DNA of 64,000 bases from the NCBI GenBank assembly GCA_947452995.1, contig CANGEV010000005.1:1-64000 (forward strand). Reading direction: 5' to 3'. Below are positions 13,195 through 63,036 of this stretch, in pieces; the stretch's first letter is position 1, and every line of letters starts with the position of its first letter. A model generated the notes under the pieces. It saw only the letters and a program-made list of their open reading frames with translations. It ran no database searches and was not told where the DNA came from. This DNA is from Chitinophagales bacterium (GTDB taxonomy: Bacteria; Bacteroidota; Bacteroidia; Chitinophagales; CAIODY01). The position numbers and the translations under genes were made by a program.

Positions 13195-14133
13195 TTAAGC
13201 ATTTTGCAATTCAGCAACCGAAGCTTGGTGCACAAGGTATAAGACAGCCATTCTAACTGCAACACCATTTTCAACCTGATCAAGTATGATCGAATTCTTA
13301 CCATCTGCTACTTCAGAACTAATTTCCACACCACGATTAATTGGTCCTGGATGCATTATAACGATATCTTTACCAATCTCATTTAACAAGGTTTGATTGA
13401 TACCATAATACAAAGAGTATTCACGTAAAGAAGGGAAATATTGAATATCTTGACGCTCTAATTGAATTCGCAATACATTGGCTACATCACACCATTGTAA
13501 CGCCTTTTTAATATCATATTCTACTTCTACACCCAAGCTTTCAATATTTTGTGGCATCAAAGTAGGAGGGCCACACAACTTCACTTTAGCTCCTAACTTT
13601 TGAAGACAGTAAATATTGCTAAGTGCAACACGTGAATGAAGGATATCGCCTACTATTAAAATTTTCTTACCCGTCAACTCCCCTACTTTTTCTCTTATAG
13701 AATAAGCATCTAATAAAGCTTGTGTCGGATGTTCATGTGTCCCATCACCAGCGTTAATAATACTCGCATTAATATGCTTTTGTAAAAAAATGGCGGCACC
13801 AGGACTAGGATGTCGCATAACAACCATATCCACTTTCATGGCTAGGATATTATTTACTGTATCAATTAACGTTTCACCCTTACTAACTGATGAGGAGGAT
13901 GTAGTAAAATTTAAAACATCCGCATTAAGTCTTTTTTCAGCTAGTTCAAATGAAATACGAGTACGTGTTGAATTTTCAAAAAACAAATTCACAATGGTTA
14001 CATCACGCATAGATGGAACCTTTTTTATTGGACGGTTTAGTACTTCTTTAAAATGATCAGCCTGGGTAAAAATAAGTTCTATATCAGCTTTAGAGAGCTG
14101 TTTAATTCCCAGTAAATGCTTAGTTGACAACAT
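13195..14133 (-). CDS. pyrB: Aspartate carbamoyltransferase catalytic subunit
   Basis: PyrB joins carbamoyl phosphate to aspartate, the committed step of pyrimidine synthesis. The 312-residue protein has the carbamoyl phosphate loop FFENSTRTRISFELAEKRL near residues 52-70. It also has DGTHEHPTQALLDAYSI near 133 and the aspartate-site HPGPINRGVEI near 263. No regulatory chain gene (pyrI) is adjacent. It lies 54 bases after pyrR. A catalytically dead dihydroorotase-like gene elsewhere in this window (59831-61093) is a plausible structural partner. Confidence 0.95.
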   Translation of the reverse strand: MLSTKHLLGIKQLSKADIELIFTQADHFKEVLNRPIKKVPSMRDVTIVNLFFENSTRTRISFELAEKRLNADVLNFTTSSSSVSKGETLIDTVNNILAMKVDMVVMRHPSPGAAIFLQKHINASIINAGDGTHEHPTQALLDAYSIREKVGELTGKKILIVGDILHSRVALSNIYCLQKLGAKVKLCGPPTLMPQNIESLGVEVEYDIKKALQWCDVANVLRIQLERQDIQYFPSLREYSLYYGINQTLLNEIGKDIVIMHPGPINRGVEISSEVADGKNSIILDQVENGVAVRMAVLYLVHQASVAELQNA

Positions 14134-14187: not shown

Positions 14188-14721
14188 TTATTCAACGGCA
14201 ATAACAGCATCAATACCATCTTTCTCCTTCCATTTTACCTTCACCTTTTGTTGATTGAAAGTATCAACTGCCTGACCTACGTAATCTGCATGAATAGGTA
14301 AATCACGCGAAAATTTTCGATCAATCAAAACCATTAACTCCACTTTAGCCGGACGACCAAATGCCAAAAGTGCATCAAGTGCTGCACGGATCGTTCTACC
14401 GGTATACAATACATCATCAATTAAAATCACCTTTTTATTAGCGATCGAGAATTGCATTTCTGTAGTATAGGATTTAATATTAGCGTCTTGACGAACATCG
14501 TCACGATAAAATGAAATATCTAATTTTCCGAGGGCTGGTTTATAGGAAGCATTCTCTTCCTGCATTAATTGCATAATTCTATTAGCCATCCAAACTCCTC
14601 GCGGTTGAATACCAACTAAAACCAATTGATTGATGTCGCGGTGTTGCTCAACAATCTGCTGTGCGAGTCGCTTTAAGGTTAAGGCTAACCTTTTTTCATC
14701 TAAAATCAACTTTTCAACCAT
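14188..14721 (-). CDS. pyrR: PyrR-like bifunctional regulator / uracil phosphoribosyltransferase
   Basis: The 177-residue protein has the phosphoribosyltransferase fold with the PRPP loop VILIDDVLYTGRTIRAALDA near residues 94-113 and the hallmark LVGIQPRGVWMANRI near residue 36. In Bacillus, PyrR attenuates the pyr operon by binding mRNA and also converts uracil to UMP. Here I see no attenuator hairpins between pyrR and pyrB, so regulation through that mechanism is not supported. It heads the pyrR-pyrB-folK-kinase unit. The promoter lies so close to ATG 14721 that the mRNA may lack a leader. Confidence 0.9.
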   Translation of the reverse strand: MVEKLILDEKRLALTLKRLAQQIVEQHRDINQLVLVGIQPRGVWMANRIMQLMQEENASYKPALGKLDISFYRDDVRQDANIKSYTTEMQFSIANKKVILIDDVLYTGRTIRAALDALLAFGRPAKVELMVLIDRKFSRDLPIHADYVGQAVDTFNQQKVKVKWKEKDGIDAVIAVE

Positions 14722-56844: not shown

Positions 56845-57273
56845 ATGAAGAAACAATTTTTAACTTTTCTTATGATCGTTGCAGTCGGAAATTTATCCGC
56901 AGTAGTAATCGCACAAGAGAACGAACCACAAATTGTTCAAGTAAATGCCTCTAAAGGTGTTTTAACAGTGAACGAAGAAACGCATGATTTTGGCACGATT
57001 CCTGAAGGTCCTGATGCTATGTGCGAATTTATTATTACTAACACAGGAACAGAACCATTAATTCTGAATAGTGTAACTGCGGGTTGTGGTTGTACAGCAC
57101 CAAGTTTTTCAAAAGAACCAGTTTTACCAGGAGCAAAAACAACAATTAAGGTGATTTATCATACAAACGGCAGACCCGGACCATTTACTAAAAGTATTAA
57201 CATATCATCTAACGCAAGCAATGGCGAATCCAAAATTATTTACATAAAAGGAACTGTACAAAACAAGCAATAA
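56845..57273 (+). CDS. DUF1573 domain protein (first of a tandem pair)
   Basis: The 142-residue protein has a signal peptide (ending VVIAQ at about residue 23) and one DUF1573 domain, an Ig-like fold common in Bacteroidota envelope proteins. The core motif is AGCGCTAPSFSKEPVLPGAK near residues 75-94, followed by GRPGPFTKSINISSNA. It is about 60% similar by eye to the next gene. The function is unknown. Periplasmic location is inferred from the signal. Confidence 0.85.
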   Translation: MKKQFLTFLMIVAVGNLSAVVIAQENEPQIVQVNASKGVLTVNEETHDFGTIPEGPDAMCEFIITNTGTEPLILNSVTAGCGCTAPSFSKEPVLPGAKTTIKVIYHTNGRPGPFTKSINISSNASNGESKIIYIKGTVQNKQ

Positions 57274-57306
57274 CCTATTTGTTCTTTCCTTTTTCAACAT
57301 TTTTTC

Positions 57307-57314
57307 TATATTTG
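57307..57314 (+). promoter_or_regulatory. -7 element before the second DUF1573 gene
   Basis: TATATTTG fits TAnnTTTG and lies 43 bases before ATG 57357. A TTTG at 57278 is 25 bases upstream, longer than usual. It suggests the second paralogue can be expressed alone. Confidence 0.5.
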
Positions 57315-57356
57315 CCTAACACGTTAATTTTTAAACTAAATCTAAACCATCATAAC

Positions 57357-57857
57357 ATGAAAAAACTAGCACTTTTACTTCTAGCTTCTGGATTATTTGT
57401 AATCAAAGCTAACGCACAAGCAGTTCCTGCTTCTACACCTGCAGCACAAACAGCACCTGCTGAAAACCCTAATGCTCCAGACATTAAATTTGTAACTGAT
57501 CAACACGACTTCGGTACTGTACCTGAAGGTCCTCAAGCTAAATATGATTTCGAATTCGAAAACACAGGAAAAGAACCATTAATTCTTCAAAACGTACAAG
57601 CTTCTTGCGGTTGTACAACTCCAGAATGGCCTAAAAATCCAATCTTACCTGGTGAAAAAGCAAAGATCATCGCTATCTACAATACACAAGGTCGCCCTGG
57701 TGCTTTCACAAAAACAATCACTGTAACATCAAATGCAAAATCACCTACAAAGGTATTGACTATTCGTGGTACAGTTGAAGCGGCTCCTGCTACAACAGCT
57801 CCTGAAAAAGCTCCTAATATGATTAACACTCCGAATCCAACTAACGGCGGTCACTAA
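57357..57857 (+). CDS. DUF1573 domain protein (second of a tandem pair)
   Basis: ATG 57357 gives 166 residues, beginning with a clean signal peptide (MKKLALLLLASGLFVIKANA). The upstream in-frame TTG at 57279 would bury the signal. An Ala/Pro/Thr-rich linker leads to the DUF1573 domain, with ASCGCTTPEWPKNPILPGEK near residues 81-100 and GRPGAFTKTITVTSNA after it. An Ala/Pro/Asn-rich tail ends the protein. Codon choice looks optimised (many TCT, GCT and GGT codons) compared with the first copy, suggesting high expression. The function is unknown. Confidence 0.87.
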   Translation: MKKLALLLLASGLFVIKANAQAVPASTPAAQTAPAENPNAPDIKFVTDQHDFGTVPEGPQAKYDFEFENTGKEPLILQNVQASCGCTTPEWPKNPILPGEKAKIIAIYNTQGRPGAFTKTITVTSNAKSPTKVLTIRGTVEAAPATTAPEKAPNMINTPNPTNGGH

Positions 57858-57929: not shown

Positions 57930-59822
57930 CTACTCCATCATCATCGCCAACTCCAACCAACGCTCTTCCTTCTTCGTTAAATTTGTACTGATTTTTTCTA
58001 ACTCAGCACCAACTGCTTGGATTTTATCGTAGTTGGTTTCATTGTTTAAAATTGCACTAAGCTCAGTTTGCTTTGCTTGCAACTCCTGCATCTCCTGTTC
58101 TATCATTTCGTATTCACGCTGATCCTTGTAAGAGAGTTTCTTTTTTTCTTTTGGCTTTTCTATTACAGGCATAGCCGCCAATTCTTCTTTAATTCGAACA
58201 TTTTCTTCCTTACGTTTTTTGTCAGTATCTCGTTTAAAAACACGATACTCACTATAGTTTCCAGGAAAATCATTCACCACCCCATCCCCTTCAAAAATGA
58301 ACAAGTGATCCACCAATTTATCCATGAAATATCGATCATGCGAAACCATTAAAATACAACCCTCAAAATAAGTCAAGAAATTCTCTAACACTTGAAGCGT
58401 TACCAAATCAAGGTCATTGGTTGGTTCATCTAAAATTAAGAAATTCGGATTCTGATATAATAAGCCCAGTAATTGCAAACGTCGTCTTTCTCCTCCACTT
58501 AATTTAGAAACGTAGGTATATTGTTTTTCAGGCTCAAATAAAAACAATTCTAAAAATTGACCAGCGCTTACTTTGGTGCCATCTGCTAAAACGAAATGTT
58601 CTGCTATATTTTTTACATATTCAATAACTCGAACATCTTCCTTTAACACCAATCCTTTCTGATCAAAATAACCTAGTACGACGGTTTCGCCTAAATTAAT
58701 TTTCCCTGAGTCAGCTTCCTCTTTACCACTAATTAGATTTAAAAAAGTGGTTTTACCAGTGCCATTAACACCTATTATTCCAATTCGTTCTTTACGTTTG
58801 AACGTATAATCAAAGCCAGCAAGTATTTTAAGATCTCCGTAATTTTTGTACACCTTTTTCATCTCCAAAACCTTACCACCTAGACGAGTCATTTTCATAT
58901 TCAGCTCTAGCTGAAGATCGGATTTGCGCTTTAGGGCTTTAACTTCAAGGTCGTCGAATGCCTCCGTTCGGGCTTTTGATTTGGTGGTGCGTGCCTTAGG
59001 TTGTTTTCTAACCCACTCTAATTCTCGACGATAAAGGTTTTTAAGTTTATCTTGTTCACTTGCGGCAGCCGTGATACGTGCATCTTTTTTTTCAAGATAA
59101 TACGCGAAATCGCCATCGTATTCATAAATGGTATTATCATCCAGTTCTACAATTCGGTTACATACATTATCCATAAAGAATCGATCATGCGTAACCAATA
59201 AAAGTGTACGAGACTCATTATTTAAATAATTCTCCAACCACTCTATCATGCCCATATCCAAATGATTCGTAGGCTCATCCAAAAGTAACAAACAATGCCC
59301 TGGATTGAGTTCCATTTCAATCAAGGCCTTGGCTAACGCTAGACGCTTTTTCTGTCCACCCGATAAGGTTCCAATCTTTTGATGAAGAAAGTTGATATTC
59401 AACTTGGATAAAATTGTTTCAATTTGGTTTTCGGTGTCCCAAGCTTGCAAAAATTCTAATTTTTCAGCAGCTAAATGAATTGCTTGTTCGTCGTGCGTTT
59501 CTGCTGACAACAATTCATTATAAAGTTTAAGTGCTCGAACTTTATCATCGTTATGATTAAAGACGTTATCTATCGTTTTCTGATTTTCATCCCAGGCATT
59601 TTCTTGTTCGAGATAGATAAGTCGAATATCCCGATTTACAACAACTTTACCACTTTCAGAAAACTCTTTACCTACTAAAATTTTTAGCAAGGTGCTTTTA
59701 CCTGCGCCATTTCTAGCAATTAAAGCAACACGGTCCCCCTCATTTATATGAAAAGTAATATTCTCAAAAAGCGGTTGAATACCATAACTTTTTGTAAGCG
59801 ATTCAATACTTAAAAAATGCAT
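57930..59822 (-). CDS. ABC-F family ATP-binding protein (Uup-like)
   Basis: The 630-residue soluble protein has two ABC ATPase domains and no membrane part. ABC-F proteins act on ribosomes or, for Uup, in DNA and ribosome quality control. Domain one has Walker A LIARNGAGKSTLLKIL near 35, LSGGQKKRLALAKAL and LLLDEPTNHLD. Domain two has GVNGTGKTTFLNLISG near 350, LSGGERRRLQLLGL and LILDEPTNDLD. The basic linker near residues 260-300 and the C-terminal coiled coil (about 560-630) fit the Uup group. It is eight bases downstream of the dihydroorotase-like gene. Confidence 0.92.
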   Translation of the reverse strand: MHFLSIESLTKSYGIQPLFENITFHINEGDRVALIARNGAGKSTLLKILVGKEFSESGKVVVNRDIRLIYLEQENAWDENQKTIDNVFNHNDDKVRALKLYNELLSAETHDEQAIHLAAEKLEFLQAWDTENQIETILSKLNINFLHQKIGTLSGGQKKRLALAKALIEMELNPGHCLLLLDEPTNHLDMGMIEWLENYLNNESRTLLLVTHDRFFMDNVCNRIVELDDNTIYEYDGDFAYYLEKKDARITAAASEQDKLKNLYRRELEWVRKQPKARTTKSKARTEAFDDLEVKALKRKSDLQLELNMKMTRLGGKVLEMKKVYKNYGDLKILAGFDYTFKRKERIGIIGVNGTGKTTFLNLISGKEEADSGKINLGETVVLGYFDQKGLVLKEDVRVIEYVKNIAEHFVLADGTKVSAGQFLELFLFEPEKQYTYVSKLSGGERRRLQLLGLLYQNPNFLILDEPTNDLDLVTLQVLENFLTYFEGCILMVSHDRYFMDKLVDHLFIFEGDGVVNDFPGNYSEYRVFKRDTDKKRKEENVRIKEELAAMPVIEKPKEKKKLSYKDQREYEMIEQEMQELQAKQTELSAILNNETNYDKIQAVGAELEKISTNLTKKEERWLELAMMME

Positions 59823-59830
59823 TTAGCTTT

Positions 59831-61093
59831 TTAGTTTTGGTGCCAAACATTCTTAGTGAACACCCCTTTCACCTTACCTTGTAGCTGTTTGCCTAACAAA
59901 GCTGAATTTTTAGACTTTGATTTTATATCATTTTGCGTAAGCAAATATGTTTGGTGACGATCTATTAAAGTTAATTCTGCTTTTTGGCCAATGTCGATTG
60001 AATTTAGATTAAGCCCCAATAATTTCCGAGGATTAATACTTAATAATTCAACTATTCTATCATTACTAATTTGATTATCGAAAGCAGTTAATAACGCTGA
60101 AAAACAAGTTTCTAAATTAATACTGCCTGAAGATGCATATGCAAACTCAACAGCTTTTTCTTCGATTGTACGTGGTATATGGTTAGAAATAATAAGCGAA
60201 ATCGTACCATCTAAAACAGCCTTTTTTAGTGCTAAAACGGTATCATTATCTCTCAAAGGAGGCACAATTTTAAAATTAGAATCAAACTCGGATAGTGAAT
60301 CATCAGTTAATAATAAATGTAACGACGATACGCCGGCACTTATATTAAGATGTGAATTAATTGCTTCTTTAATTTCTAAAAGACTCTCTTTGGTGGTGCA
60401 ATTTAAAAAATGCAATTTTGAACCTGCATATTTACACAATTCTATATCACGCTTTACAGCTAAAGACTCCGATAGTGCTGGAATTCCTTTCAATCCAAGC
60501 GTTACATGAATTTTACCTTCATGCATCATACCACCGTTTGATAATGCTGGCGTATCAGGCTGTTGAATAATTAATCCATCAAAAGCCTTGACATATTGCA
60601 ATGCACGAAGTAGTAAGCCCTCATTAGCAAGACCTTTATTAGCATCGCAAAAAGCTAAAGCACCAGCGGTATGCATATCGAATAATTCAGCCATTTGCTC
60701 TCCTTTCAATTGTTTGGAGATTGAGCCTAATGCAGAAAAATCTATTTCTTGATTCTGATTATTTATAAATTCTACGCTCGCTTTACTATCAGTTACAGGC
60801 GAGGTGGAAGGCAAAATTACAAGCTGACTATAGCCTCCGGCCAAAGCTGCTTTTGTGGCGGAGCGAAAGTCTTCCCTATCCTCCTTTCCTGGCTCACCTA
60901 CCCAAGTACCAATATCCACAAAGGATGGCATCAATAGTAGCCCTGTAGCCTCTATTACTTGATGATTGCTGGAAGGAATTGAAGGTTCGATGGCAGAAAT
61001 AATGCCATCAATTACTAATATATCCTTCACTTGCTCGTTGAAGGAAGATCTAGGATCGCAAACAGTTACCTGTCGAAAGAGAAGAGAACTCAT
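59831..61093 (-). CDS. Dihydroorotase-like protein lacking catalytic and metal-binding residues
   Basis: The 420-residue protein (ATG 61093; an upstream TTG is rejected) has the class I dihydroorotase fold. Comparing visible motifs with active enzymes, the HxH metal motif of FVDxHxHxREPG is changed: FVDIGTWVGEPG puts Gly 62 and Trp 64 at the histidine positions, and Gly replaces the substrate-binding Arg. The later VHCED-type histidine is Gln (IIQQPD), the AHVST histidine is Asn (LNCTT), and the catalytic Asp of TDHAPH is Asn near residue 304 (SNHIPR). Known relatives without activity (PyrC' of Pseudomonas) hold aspartate carbamoyltransferase together. A structural role with PyrB (13195-14133) is inferred. 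A true PyrC should exist elsewhere. Confidence 0.88.
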   Translation of the reverse strand: MSSLLFRQVTVCDPRSSFNEQVKDILVIDGIISAIEPSIPSSNHQVIEATGLLLMPSFVDIGTWVGEPGKEDREDFRSATKAALAGGYSQLVILPSTSPVTDSKASVEFINNQNQEIDFSALGSISKQLKGEQMAELFDMHTAGALAFCDANKGLANEGLLLRALQYVKAFDGLIIQQPDTPALSNGGMMHEGKIHVTLGLKGIPALSESLAVKRDIELCKYAGSKLHFLNCTTKESLLEIKEAINSHLNISAGVSSLHLLLTDDSLSEFDSNFKIVPPLRDNDTVLALKKAVLDGTISLIISNHIPRTIEEKAVEFAYASSGSINLETCFSALLTAFDNQISNDRIVELLSINPRKLLGLNLNSIDIGQKAELTLIDRHQTYLLTQNDIKSKSKNSALLGKQLQGKVKGVFTKNVWHQN

Positions 61094-61102
61094 ATCGAAA
61101 AA

Positions 61103-61110
61103 CAAAGTTA
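61103..61110 (-). promoter_or_regulatory. -7 element of the dihydroorotase-like gene
   Basis: TAACTTTG on the minus strand fits TAnnTTTG, ending ten bases before ATG 61093. The leader would be about four bases. The -33 element is weak. Confidence 0.5.
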
Positions 61111-61129
61111 AACAATTTTATGGAAAGCT

Positions 61130-61137
61130 TAAATTTG
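61130..61137 (+). promoter_or_regulatory. -7 element of the TMTC-like gene
   Basis: TAAATTTG fits TAnnTTTG and ends 16 bases before ATG 61153. It supports that start over the in-frame ATG at 61120, which precedes the element. Confidence 0.5.
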
Positions 61138-61152
61138 TGGAGCGACAATATT

Positions 61153-63036
61153 ATGAGTAAAAAGAAAAAAAACAGCATGGTCCAGGCTGCGACCTCGGAA
61201 AATAAGCAATTAGGCGATCAGCCGATCACAAAAGTCAACCTTTTCAAAAACAAAGGAATTTTAGCCTTTTTTGTCTTTATTGTGAGTTTTGCCATTTACG
61301 CGAATAGTATATTCAACGATTATGCGTTAGATGACGTTATGGTTTATACCGGCAACAAATTGGTACAATCAGGCATAGATGGAATTCAAGAATTGTGGTC
61401 GAAAGACTTCCTTTATGGATATAGAGGCTTTCAAAGTTTGGATTTAGCAGGAAGTCGTTGGCGTCCTCTTAGCTTGATTAGCTTTGCACTAGATGTTGAG
61501 CTATGGGGGAATAATCCGCATTGGAGTCACTTCGTGAACGTATTGCTCTTTTCTATTTGTTGTGTACTTTTATTTTATTTTCTTAGCACCTTCATTTTTC
61601 CTAACAAACAGCAGCCCGTATTTTACGCAGTCCTACTGTTTGCTGCATTGCCAATTCATACAGAAGTTGTGGCAAATATAAAATCTAGGGATGAGTTATT
61701 ATGTTTCCTATTTCTTTTCCTAGGTTTAATTGCAATATTCAAATGGGATAAACTAAAAGGAACTGTTTATTTTTCGATTTGTATATTTTTATCATTACTA
61801 GCAAAGGAAAATGCTGTTCCAATGTTGGCAGGCCTCCCCTTACTATTATATTATTTTAAACAACAAAGCACAAAAAAAACAGTCATTGATACTACTATTT
61901 TATTGCTTGTAATTATCATCTATCTACTCTTACGTATACAAATTATCCCAATGGGTAAATTAGAAGCCAGTAAGGAAATCTTGAATAATCCATTTATGTA
62001 TGCAAATGTAGGACAAGCTTTTGCCACAAAGGTTTTCCTGGCTATTTATTCCTTGATAATTTTAATTATTCCGTTTAAATTATCTCATGACTACTCATTT
62101 CAACATTTCGAATATTTAAACTTAAATAGCATCCAATTTATTTTATGCTTAGTCTGCCTAATCGGAATGAGTATATGGTCGTTCGTAAAAATAAAAAGCA
62201 AAAATTTGTTTGCATTCAGTTGGTTCATCTTTTTCATTCTATATTCAATTAGCACAAATTTTGTAATTGAAATTGGCACTCCATTGGCAGAACGACTTTT
62301 GTTTTTGCCCAGTATTGCAATCTGTTTTGTAATAATTTCTCTTTTAACAAAAGCAAAAGAAATCAACTTGCGTAAGCCTTTCCATATTACTATCCTAATG
62401 GTGTTTGGAATATATGCCTTCTTGACCATTCAAAGAAATATGGATTGGAAAAATGACGACACCTTATCCTTGGCTGATTATCCTAAATGTCCGAAATCAA
62501 TTCGTCTTGCAAATCGTGTTGTAACGGCCTATATAAATATGAGTGCTGATACCAACATTAGCGCAATGATGAAACACGAATTATTAGTTAAAAGCATTGC
62601 AATTTGTAAGAAAGCTTTGGCTGTACATCCAGATTATAATGATATGCTTTCAAACATAGGAGTTGCCTATTCGAGAATGGATAGTTTAGATGTTTGTGAA
62701 AAATACTGGAAACAATTTGAAACGGTAGATCGAGGTAATCCTAAATTAATTGAGTTACATCACTTTTTATTTGTGAGGATGTATAATAGAGGATTAAGCT
62801 TTGGAAGTATAAAACCAGATTCAGCATTATATTGGTTTAATAGAGCTTTTGCTTACGCAAAAACAGAGAATGATGCCAATTATTGGTACGACTATGCAGG
62901 TGCAAATTATATGTTGGGGCATTACAAAGAGGCCGCAGATGGTTTTTCAAAAACATTGAAAATTAATCCTGCGAAAAGAGAAGCAGAAATGGGATTAATG
63001 GCGGCTTCGCAAAAAGCAGGGATACCATTAAAGTAA
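61153..63036 (+). CDS. TMTC-like membrane glycosyltransferase with TPR repeats
   Basis: The 627-residue protein has a short basic N-terminus and about ten transmembrane helices (about 35-425). C-terminal TPR repeats follow (about 480-620). The arrangement and motifs match the TMTC/DUF1736 family, relatives of eukaryotic O-mannosyltransferases. DYALDDVMVY in the first extracytoplasmic loop gives the acidic pair of GT-C enzymes. SRWRPLSLISFALD and HTEVVANIKSRDELL then parallel the family's YRPL and HTEAV...R.ELL segments, and KENAV follows near 225. It may transfer a lipid-linked sugar to protein, but this is unproven. The 3' end overlaps the converging GNAT gene by nine bases. Confidence 0.8.
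   Translation: MSKKKKNSMVQAATSENKQLGDQPITKVNLFKNKGILAFFVFIVSFAIYANSIFNDYALDDVMVYTGNKLVQSGIDGIQELWSKDFLYGYRGFQSLDLAGSRWRPLSLISFALDVELWGNNPHWSHFVNVLLFSICCVLLFYFLSTFIFPNKQQPVFYAVLLFAALPIHTEVVANIKSRDELLCFLFLFLGLIAIFKWDKLKGTVYFSICIFLSLLAKENAVPMLAGLPLLLYYFKQQSTKKTVIDTTILLLVIIIYLLLRIQIIPMGKLEASKEILNNPFMYANVGQAFATKVFLAIYSLIILIIPFKLSHDYSFQHFEYLNLNSIQFILCLVCLIGMSIWSFVKIKSKNLFAFSWFIFFILYSISTNFVIEIGTPLAERLLFLPSIAICFVIISLLTKAKEINLRKPFHITILMVFGIYAFLTIQRNMDWKNDDTLSLADYPKCPKSIRLANRVVTAYINMSADTNISAMMKHELLVKSIAICKKALAVHPDYNDMLSNIGVAYSRMDSLDVCEKYWKQFETVDRGNPKLIELHHFLFVRMYNRGLSFGSIKPDSALYWFNRAFAYAKTENDANYWYDYAGANYMLGHYKEAADGFSKTLKINPAKREAEMGLMAASQKAGIPLK

Follow-up and report, generated by a model that had tools for sequence, protein, structure and literature searches.

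Why would a bacterium retain a complete gene for a dihydroorotase that has lost its active site? The question is raised by a gene of a Chitinophagales bacterium, located in the 64,000-nucleotide stretch of contig that we analysed and that we call here the window. An initial annotation, made from the letters alone, had suggested that this pseudo-dihydroorotase plays a role like that of PyrC' in Pseudomonas, together with PyrB, the ATCase catalytic chain. We show below that the dead gene is kept across much of its class alongside one type of PyrB, which suggests that it probably survives as a structural partner of ATCase. That a dead type-I dihydroorotase has been kept as a non-catalytic partner of PyrB is the explanation in which, from sequence comparison and analogy, we have good confidence.

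The gene and its predicted fold

The gene (positions 59831 to 61093, minus strand) is intact, as annotated, i.e. an unbroken reading frame of 420 aa from its ATG, or of 424 aa from an in-frame TTG upstream. Its product scores 292 bits with TIGR00857, above the cutoff for type-I dihydroorotases (279), and lies under all equivalog cutoffs among the 25 profile matches listed. Solved type-I dihydroorotases align with it across almost its whole length; with the TIGR00857 score, this agrees with the claim that the dihydroorotase fold is kept. An AlphaFold2 model made with 23 aligned sequences has a mean pLDDT of 91.4, and its best seven PDB matches in Foldseek are type-I dihydroorotases (TM 0.92-0.95). 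The match to 3d6n_A, the Aquifex dihydroorotase in complex with ATCase, has a TM of 0.95 and 29% identity. The protein is a full-length relative of the type-I dihydroorotases, whose fold it is predicted to retain.

Loss of the active site

We give residues of the window protein by their position from the ATG, with the equivalents in Aquifex aeolicus dihydroorotase; all codons lie on the minus strand. The HxH metal motif has become Gly62-Thr-Trp64 (60902 to 60910), with Gly62 for His61 and Trp64 for His63, and the substrate Arg65 has become Gly66 (60896 to 60898). The metal ligands His180 and His232 are replaced by Gln178 (60560 to 60562) and Asn231 (60401 to 60403), the catalytic Asp305 by Asn304 (60182 to 60184), and the equivalent of Asn95 is Ser96. 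Arg65 and Asn95 presumably have the roles that we assign to their positions. Hence all that is expected of an active dihydroorotase (HxH, two more metal histidines, substrate Arg, catalytic Asp) is replaced, and the alignment to active type-I enzymes bears out the catalytic losses that had been proposed. The metal ligands and Asp305 of the A. aeolicus enzyme are as given in excerpts of PMC3880350. The statement that every visible catalytic ligand is replaced was nevertheless slightly too strong, because the equivalent of the metal ligand Asp153 is kept as Asp150 (60644 to 60646), a position occupied by Asp in 48 of 54 degenerate relatives.

In a search of 30 related genomes, including the bacterium's own, 25 have a match below 1e-60, three only weaker ones and two none. 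HxH is missing from 70 of the 71 in-class relatives that were read, window included; these comprise 54 degenerate alignment rows (window included, fragment L017 dropped), 16 further sequences and L166. Among the 54, HxH is complete in none, and 30 keep none of the four metal histidines, 22 keep one and two keep two. Scans of viral contigs and of named genomes with P0001 turned up no relative. When the relative L069 (family f24) served as query, 80 loci were retained, every one bearing the title Flavobacterium, Flavobacteriaceae or [Flexibacter]; reading all 80 showed no histidine at either HxH position. Judging from these titles, the class surveyed would be Bacteroidia. Among 20 loci fetched together, the site is intact at all eight positions in 17 of the 17 that belong to the phylum's other classes, a sample that leaves out type-I matches in several other families (e.g. 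f31, f36, f47), and in none of the three from the class itself.

Of the 67 columns that do not vary in the 17 intact relatives, 59 are non-catalytic and have a low median variability in the 54 degenerate rows, while seven of the eight catalytic columns rank with the more variable there, Asp150 being the exception (one-sided Mann-Whitney p 0.0008 when Asp150 is included and 0.0002 when it is not). In a tree of 94 rows the 70 degenerate ones form one side of a branch (99% SH-aLRT); this tree was made by a quick method, has long branches and leaves out the fragments L167, L170, L172 and L175. This topology suggests that a single, old inactivation of the dihydroorotase in the class is likely. One in-class genome, G099, carries a type-I pyrC with intact HxH (L166; L194:4489-5790) beside its own pyrB, a locus that may have been acquired. 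In G193, from the same genus, neither the dihydroorotase relative nor PyrB is matched.

One might ask whether the protein could still work as a dihydroorotase, or as some other amidohydrolase, through an unusual metal site based on Asp150. The frequent conservation of this residue would fit, as would the Asp that 14 of the 54 degenerate rows and 80 of the 80 Flavobacteriaceae loci have at the position of Asp305, and the A. aeolicus enzyme has a mononuclear metal site, according to the excerpts of PMC3880350. Yet all four metal histidines vary among the degenerate rows and the genome encodes a separate dihydroorotase (see below). We regard residual catalysis of this kind as very unlikely.

Selection and a possible promoter

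Compared with its congener in genome G002, the pseudo-dihydroorotase has 79% identity, a dN of 0.151 and a dS of 1.62, which is near saturation, hence a dN/dS of ~0.09. It evolves rapidly, yet it is constrained. A local pseudogene is ruled out by this ratio. If the gene were instead a functionless paralogue that is decaying and not yet lost, one would understand why the adjacent ABC-F gene evolves more slowly (dN of 0.023 vs G002). But such decay is at odds with the low dN/dS, with the full-length matches in most of the genomes listed and with the invariance of Lys275, Pro278 and Arg281 in 54 of 54 degenerate rows, and we find it extremely improbable. The loss of the catalytic site together with the persistence of purifying selection gives good support to the earlier proposal of selection for something besides catalysis.

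The gene had also been described as promoter-driven. The motif TAACTTTG (61103 to 61110, minus strand) matches TAnnTTTG, a possible Bacteroidota-type -7 element, and 58 of the 60 bases ahead of the ATG are identical in the congener, in a stretch that may overlap the coding part of the divergent gene at 61120. Yet the window has 3 copies of the exact 8-mer vs 4.9 expected, hence no enrichment, and a sigma-70 scan of 59700 to 61300 gave 6 sites vs 4.9 expected. The element is thus a weak hint that the gene may have its own promoter.

A second dihydroorotase and the pyrimidine genes of the genome

If the pseudo-dihydroorotase does no chemistry, another protein should. The initial annotation had itself named the lack of any other pyrC in the genome as an observation that would speak against it. 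We found a separate dihydroorotase, L003 (L003:1351-2724, G000 C1), which scores 679 bits with NF006688 (cutoff 535), a result that speaks for the proposal. It carries Gln-x-His where type-I enzymes carry His-x-His. The same motif occurs in L037 and L038, and the Porphyromonas gingivalis structure 2gwn, a fold-search match, is titled putative dihydroorotase. L003 was the sole other relative found in a protein search of the genome with E up to 1; an amidohydrolase search pointed to six further places, two of which were viewed as ORFs. By its sequence, L003 is likely to be the genome's real dihydroorotase, with putative activity.

The genome also has a pyrF match. In the window, a profile match places pyrB, the proposed partner, at 13195 to 14133 (minus strand), as annotated, with pyrR just upstream (14188 to 14721, minus strand). 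A search of the whole genome (G000) for PyrI (PF02748) gave no match, which confirms the observation of a pyrB without pyrI and sets this ATCase apart from class B.

Co-occurrence with PyrB

We surveyed 247 genomes of the class and counted the gene as present when the alignment matched with an E of 1e-50 or lower. The gene is matched in 213 genomes; part of these matches were read as sequence and the one in G099 is intact. A close PyrB, defined by a threshold of 1e-110 that was chosen after the values had been seen, is found in 203 of the 213 genomes with the gene vs 5 of the 34 without it (Fisher p 3e-24, in genomes that are not independent by descent). PyrI shows the opposite pattern, with 0 of 213 genomes vs 9 of 34; five of these nine are listed as negative for the gene, and the other four, like the other unlisted negatives, are absent from the matches listed. 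In a wider sample of the phylum, 3 of 247 genomes have PyrI.

The five genomes with a close PyrB and without the gene are G298, which has a divergent copy at 4.0e-50, and G365, G391, G406 and G472, which are 67-88% complete; the other 29 genomes without the gene have a weaker PyrB (22) or no PyrB (7). Ten gene-positive genomes lack a close PyrB. Five of them have a weaker one, namely G323, G415 and G426 (two matches each, perhaps pieces), G299, and G099 with its own operon. The remaining five (G289, G408, G460, G477 and G482) have no PyrB match. Within genus g157, gene and PyrB occur together in five genomes and are both absent from G461 (78% complete); in G356 (98% complete) the gene is missing and the sole PyrB is a distant one, located in a different gene cluster. 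Since genomes lacking the gene are spread over several families, several losses of the gene in the class are likely. Two loci deserve mention in their own right. G289, rated 100% complete in 230 contigs, encodes a divergent pseudo-dihydroorotase (L195:217-1446) and gave no PyrB match, which counts against a partnership with PyrB. In G356, the distant PyrB is clustered with carA-, carB- and aminotransferase-like genes, all named by eye (L186:329-6880).

Is PyrB itself of a type expected to associate with a dihydroorotase? In the PyrB tree a branch (100/100) places the window's protein with the pyrC-linked PyrBs and separates it from those linked to PyrI; one of the rows labelled as having the pseudo-dihydroorotase, L118, belongs to G406, which is incomplete and yielded no copy. 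Among the solved relatives of the window's PyrB, the ATC chain of A. aeolicus ranks second and third. Within the group, family f99 has a PyrB whose stem is long, at 1.54 changes per column. The ratio of PyrB to GyrB distances ranges from 0.71 to 1.49 across 13 genomes with the gene and from 1.70 to 4.67 across 6 without it, which come from three families. Ten of 105 conserved PyrB columns, e.g. Lys100 and Pro234, are kept in the 31 rows linked to pyrC or to the pseudo-dihydroorotase and changed in most of the 8 rows lacking the gene, and these are leads only.

Distances of the pseudo-dihydroorotase and of PyrB covary when GyrB is controlled for (r of 0.79 for 12 genomes and of 0.75 when G298 and G364 are excluded). 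We have set this aside as proof of a partnership. Among the nine genomes in which PyrR lies beside PyrB, PyrB gives 0.81 and PyrR 0.66; once the two fast genomes are removed (7 left), the value for PyrR exceeds that for PyrB (0.75 vs 0.55). Covariation is thus unspecific and does not single out PyrB, because PyrR covaries about equally.

Physical linkage gives a mixed picture. In other classes, 8 of the 17 loci with an intact pyrC have pyrB next to it. Within the class we looked at 20 loci of 14-20 kb around the pseudo-dihydroorotase gene, and pyrB was absent from all of them. The two genes are some 32 kb apart on the same contig in G217, and 46 kb apart, hence not adjacent, in the window, the latter as previously noted.

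Precedents and a proposed role

Pseudomonas also carries an active PyrC and is not known to have PyrI, and its PyrC' gene usually adjoins pyrB, which is not strictly defining. In P. aeruginosa and P. putida, as here, PyrC' (pDHO) is a type-I homologue without dihydroorotase activity, and excerpts of PMC7053772 describe the inactive chain as required for PyrB assembly in the class A2 ATCase of P. aeruginosa. The gene studied here differs from it in lying apart from pyrB and in being spread through a class. The class A1 complex of A. aeolicus (DHO-ATC) shares the fold (3d6n_A, TM 0.95) and has a related ATC chain, but its dihydroorotase is active and zinc-bound. Fungal CAD-like proteins (Ura2) have an inactive dihydroorotase fold beside ATCase, according to the same excerpts (PMC7053772), yet as a fused domain of a multifunctional eukaryotic protein.

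The best reading of our data is a putative class A2 ATCase partner in Bacteroidia that is unlinked from pyrB. At the level of sequence the attributes of this class are in place: an inactive homologue with a second dihydroorotase, a PyrB of the dihydroorotase-associated type, and no PyrI. The PyrC'-like role with PyrB that was initially suggested gains support from the co-occurrence, the exclusion of PyrI, the pyrB-pyrC pairs of other classes and the divergence of PyrB where the gene is missing. By homology to the complexes of A. aeolicus and P. aeruginosa, dimers of the pseudo-dihydroorotase would link a pair of PyrB trimers in a dodecamer, and PyrB may depend on them for its assembly or stability, while the separate NF006688-type enzyme would do the chemistry. 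It is from these analogies that we infer binding to PyrB, its stoichiometry and the need for it in ATCase activity.

We lean, with some reserve, towards the following history. At the stem of Bacteroidia an Aquifex-type pyrBC would have lost its dihydroorotase activity once, and the QxH-type enzyme would have taken over. The dead chain would then have become, in most of the class, a subunit that ATCase cannot assemble without, and where it was later lost PyrB would have been replaced or would have evolved faster. If this partnership is true, an inactive dihydroorotase belongs to ATCase in much of Bacteroidia, including Flavobacterium, beyond Pseudomonas and fungi, and the plain label 'dihydroorotase' is wrong for this gene in many genomes. 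Lineages that lack the gene and have a changed PyrB would then offer natural experiments on the contribution of the dead subunit to ATCase. None of the literature matches listed is a publication on this pseudo-dihydroorotase in Bacteroidota, within a scope that excludes older work on ATCase classification and most subscription journals.

Gene neighbourhoods

The neighbours of the gene raise a last alternative, a new function outside pyrimidine synthesis, e.g. with a BatA-like membrane protein and other frequent neighbours. The gene for this protein is the commonest neighbour, present in 14 of 26 loci and directly upstream in 13 (including L195 and L196); two members of its cluster were confirmed as PF07584. 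In 13 of these 26 loci there is a cluster that by eye looks glycosyltransferase-like. Yet the BatA-like neighbour is missing from the window and from its congener, and the presence of the gene tracks the type of PyrB across the class. We thus think a role outside pyrimidine synthesis unlikely, and favour the partnership with PyrB. In the window, the ABC-F ATPase gene lies 8 bases downstream of the pseudo-dihydroorotase gene, on the same strand. Further away, at 56845 to 57857 (plus strand), two adjacent and similar small proteins of 142 and 192 aa belong to one homology cluster, an apparent tandem duplication.
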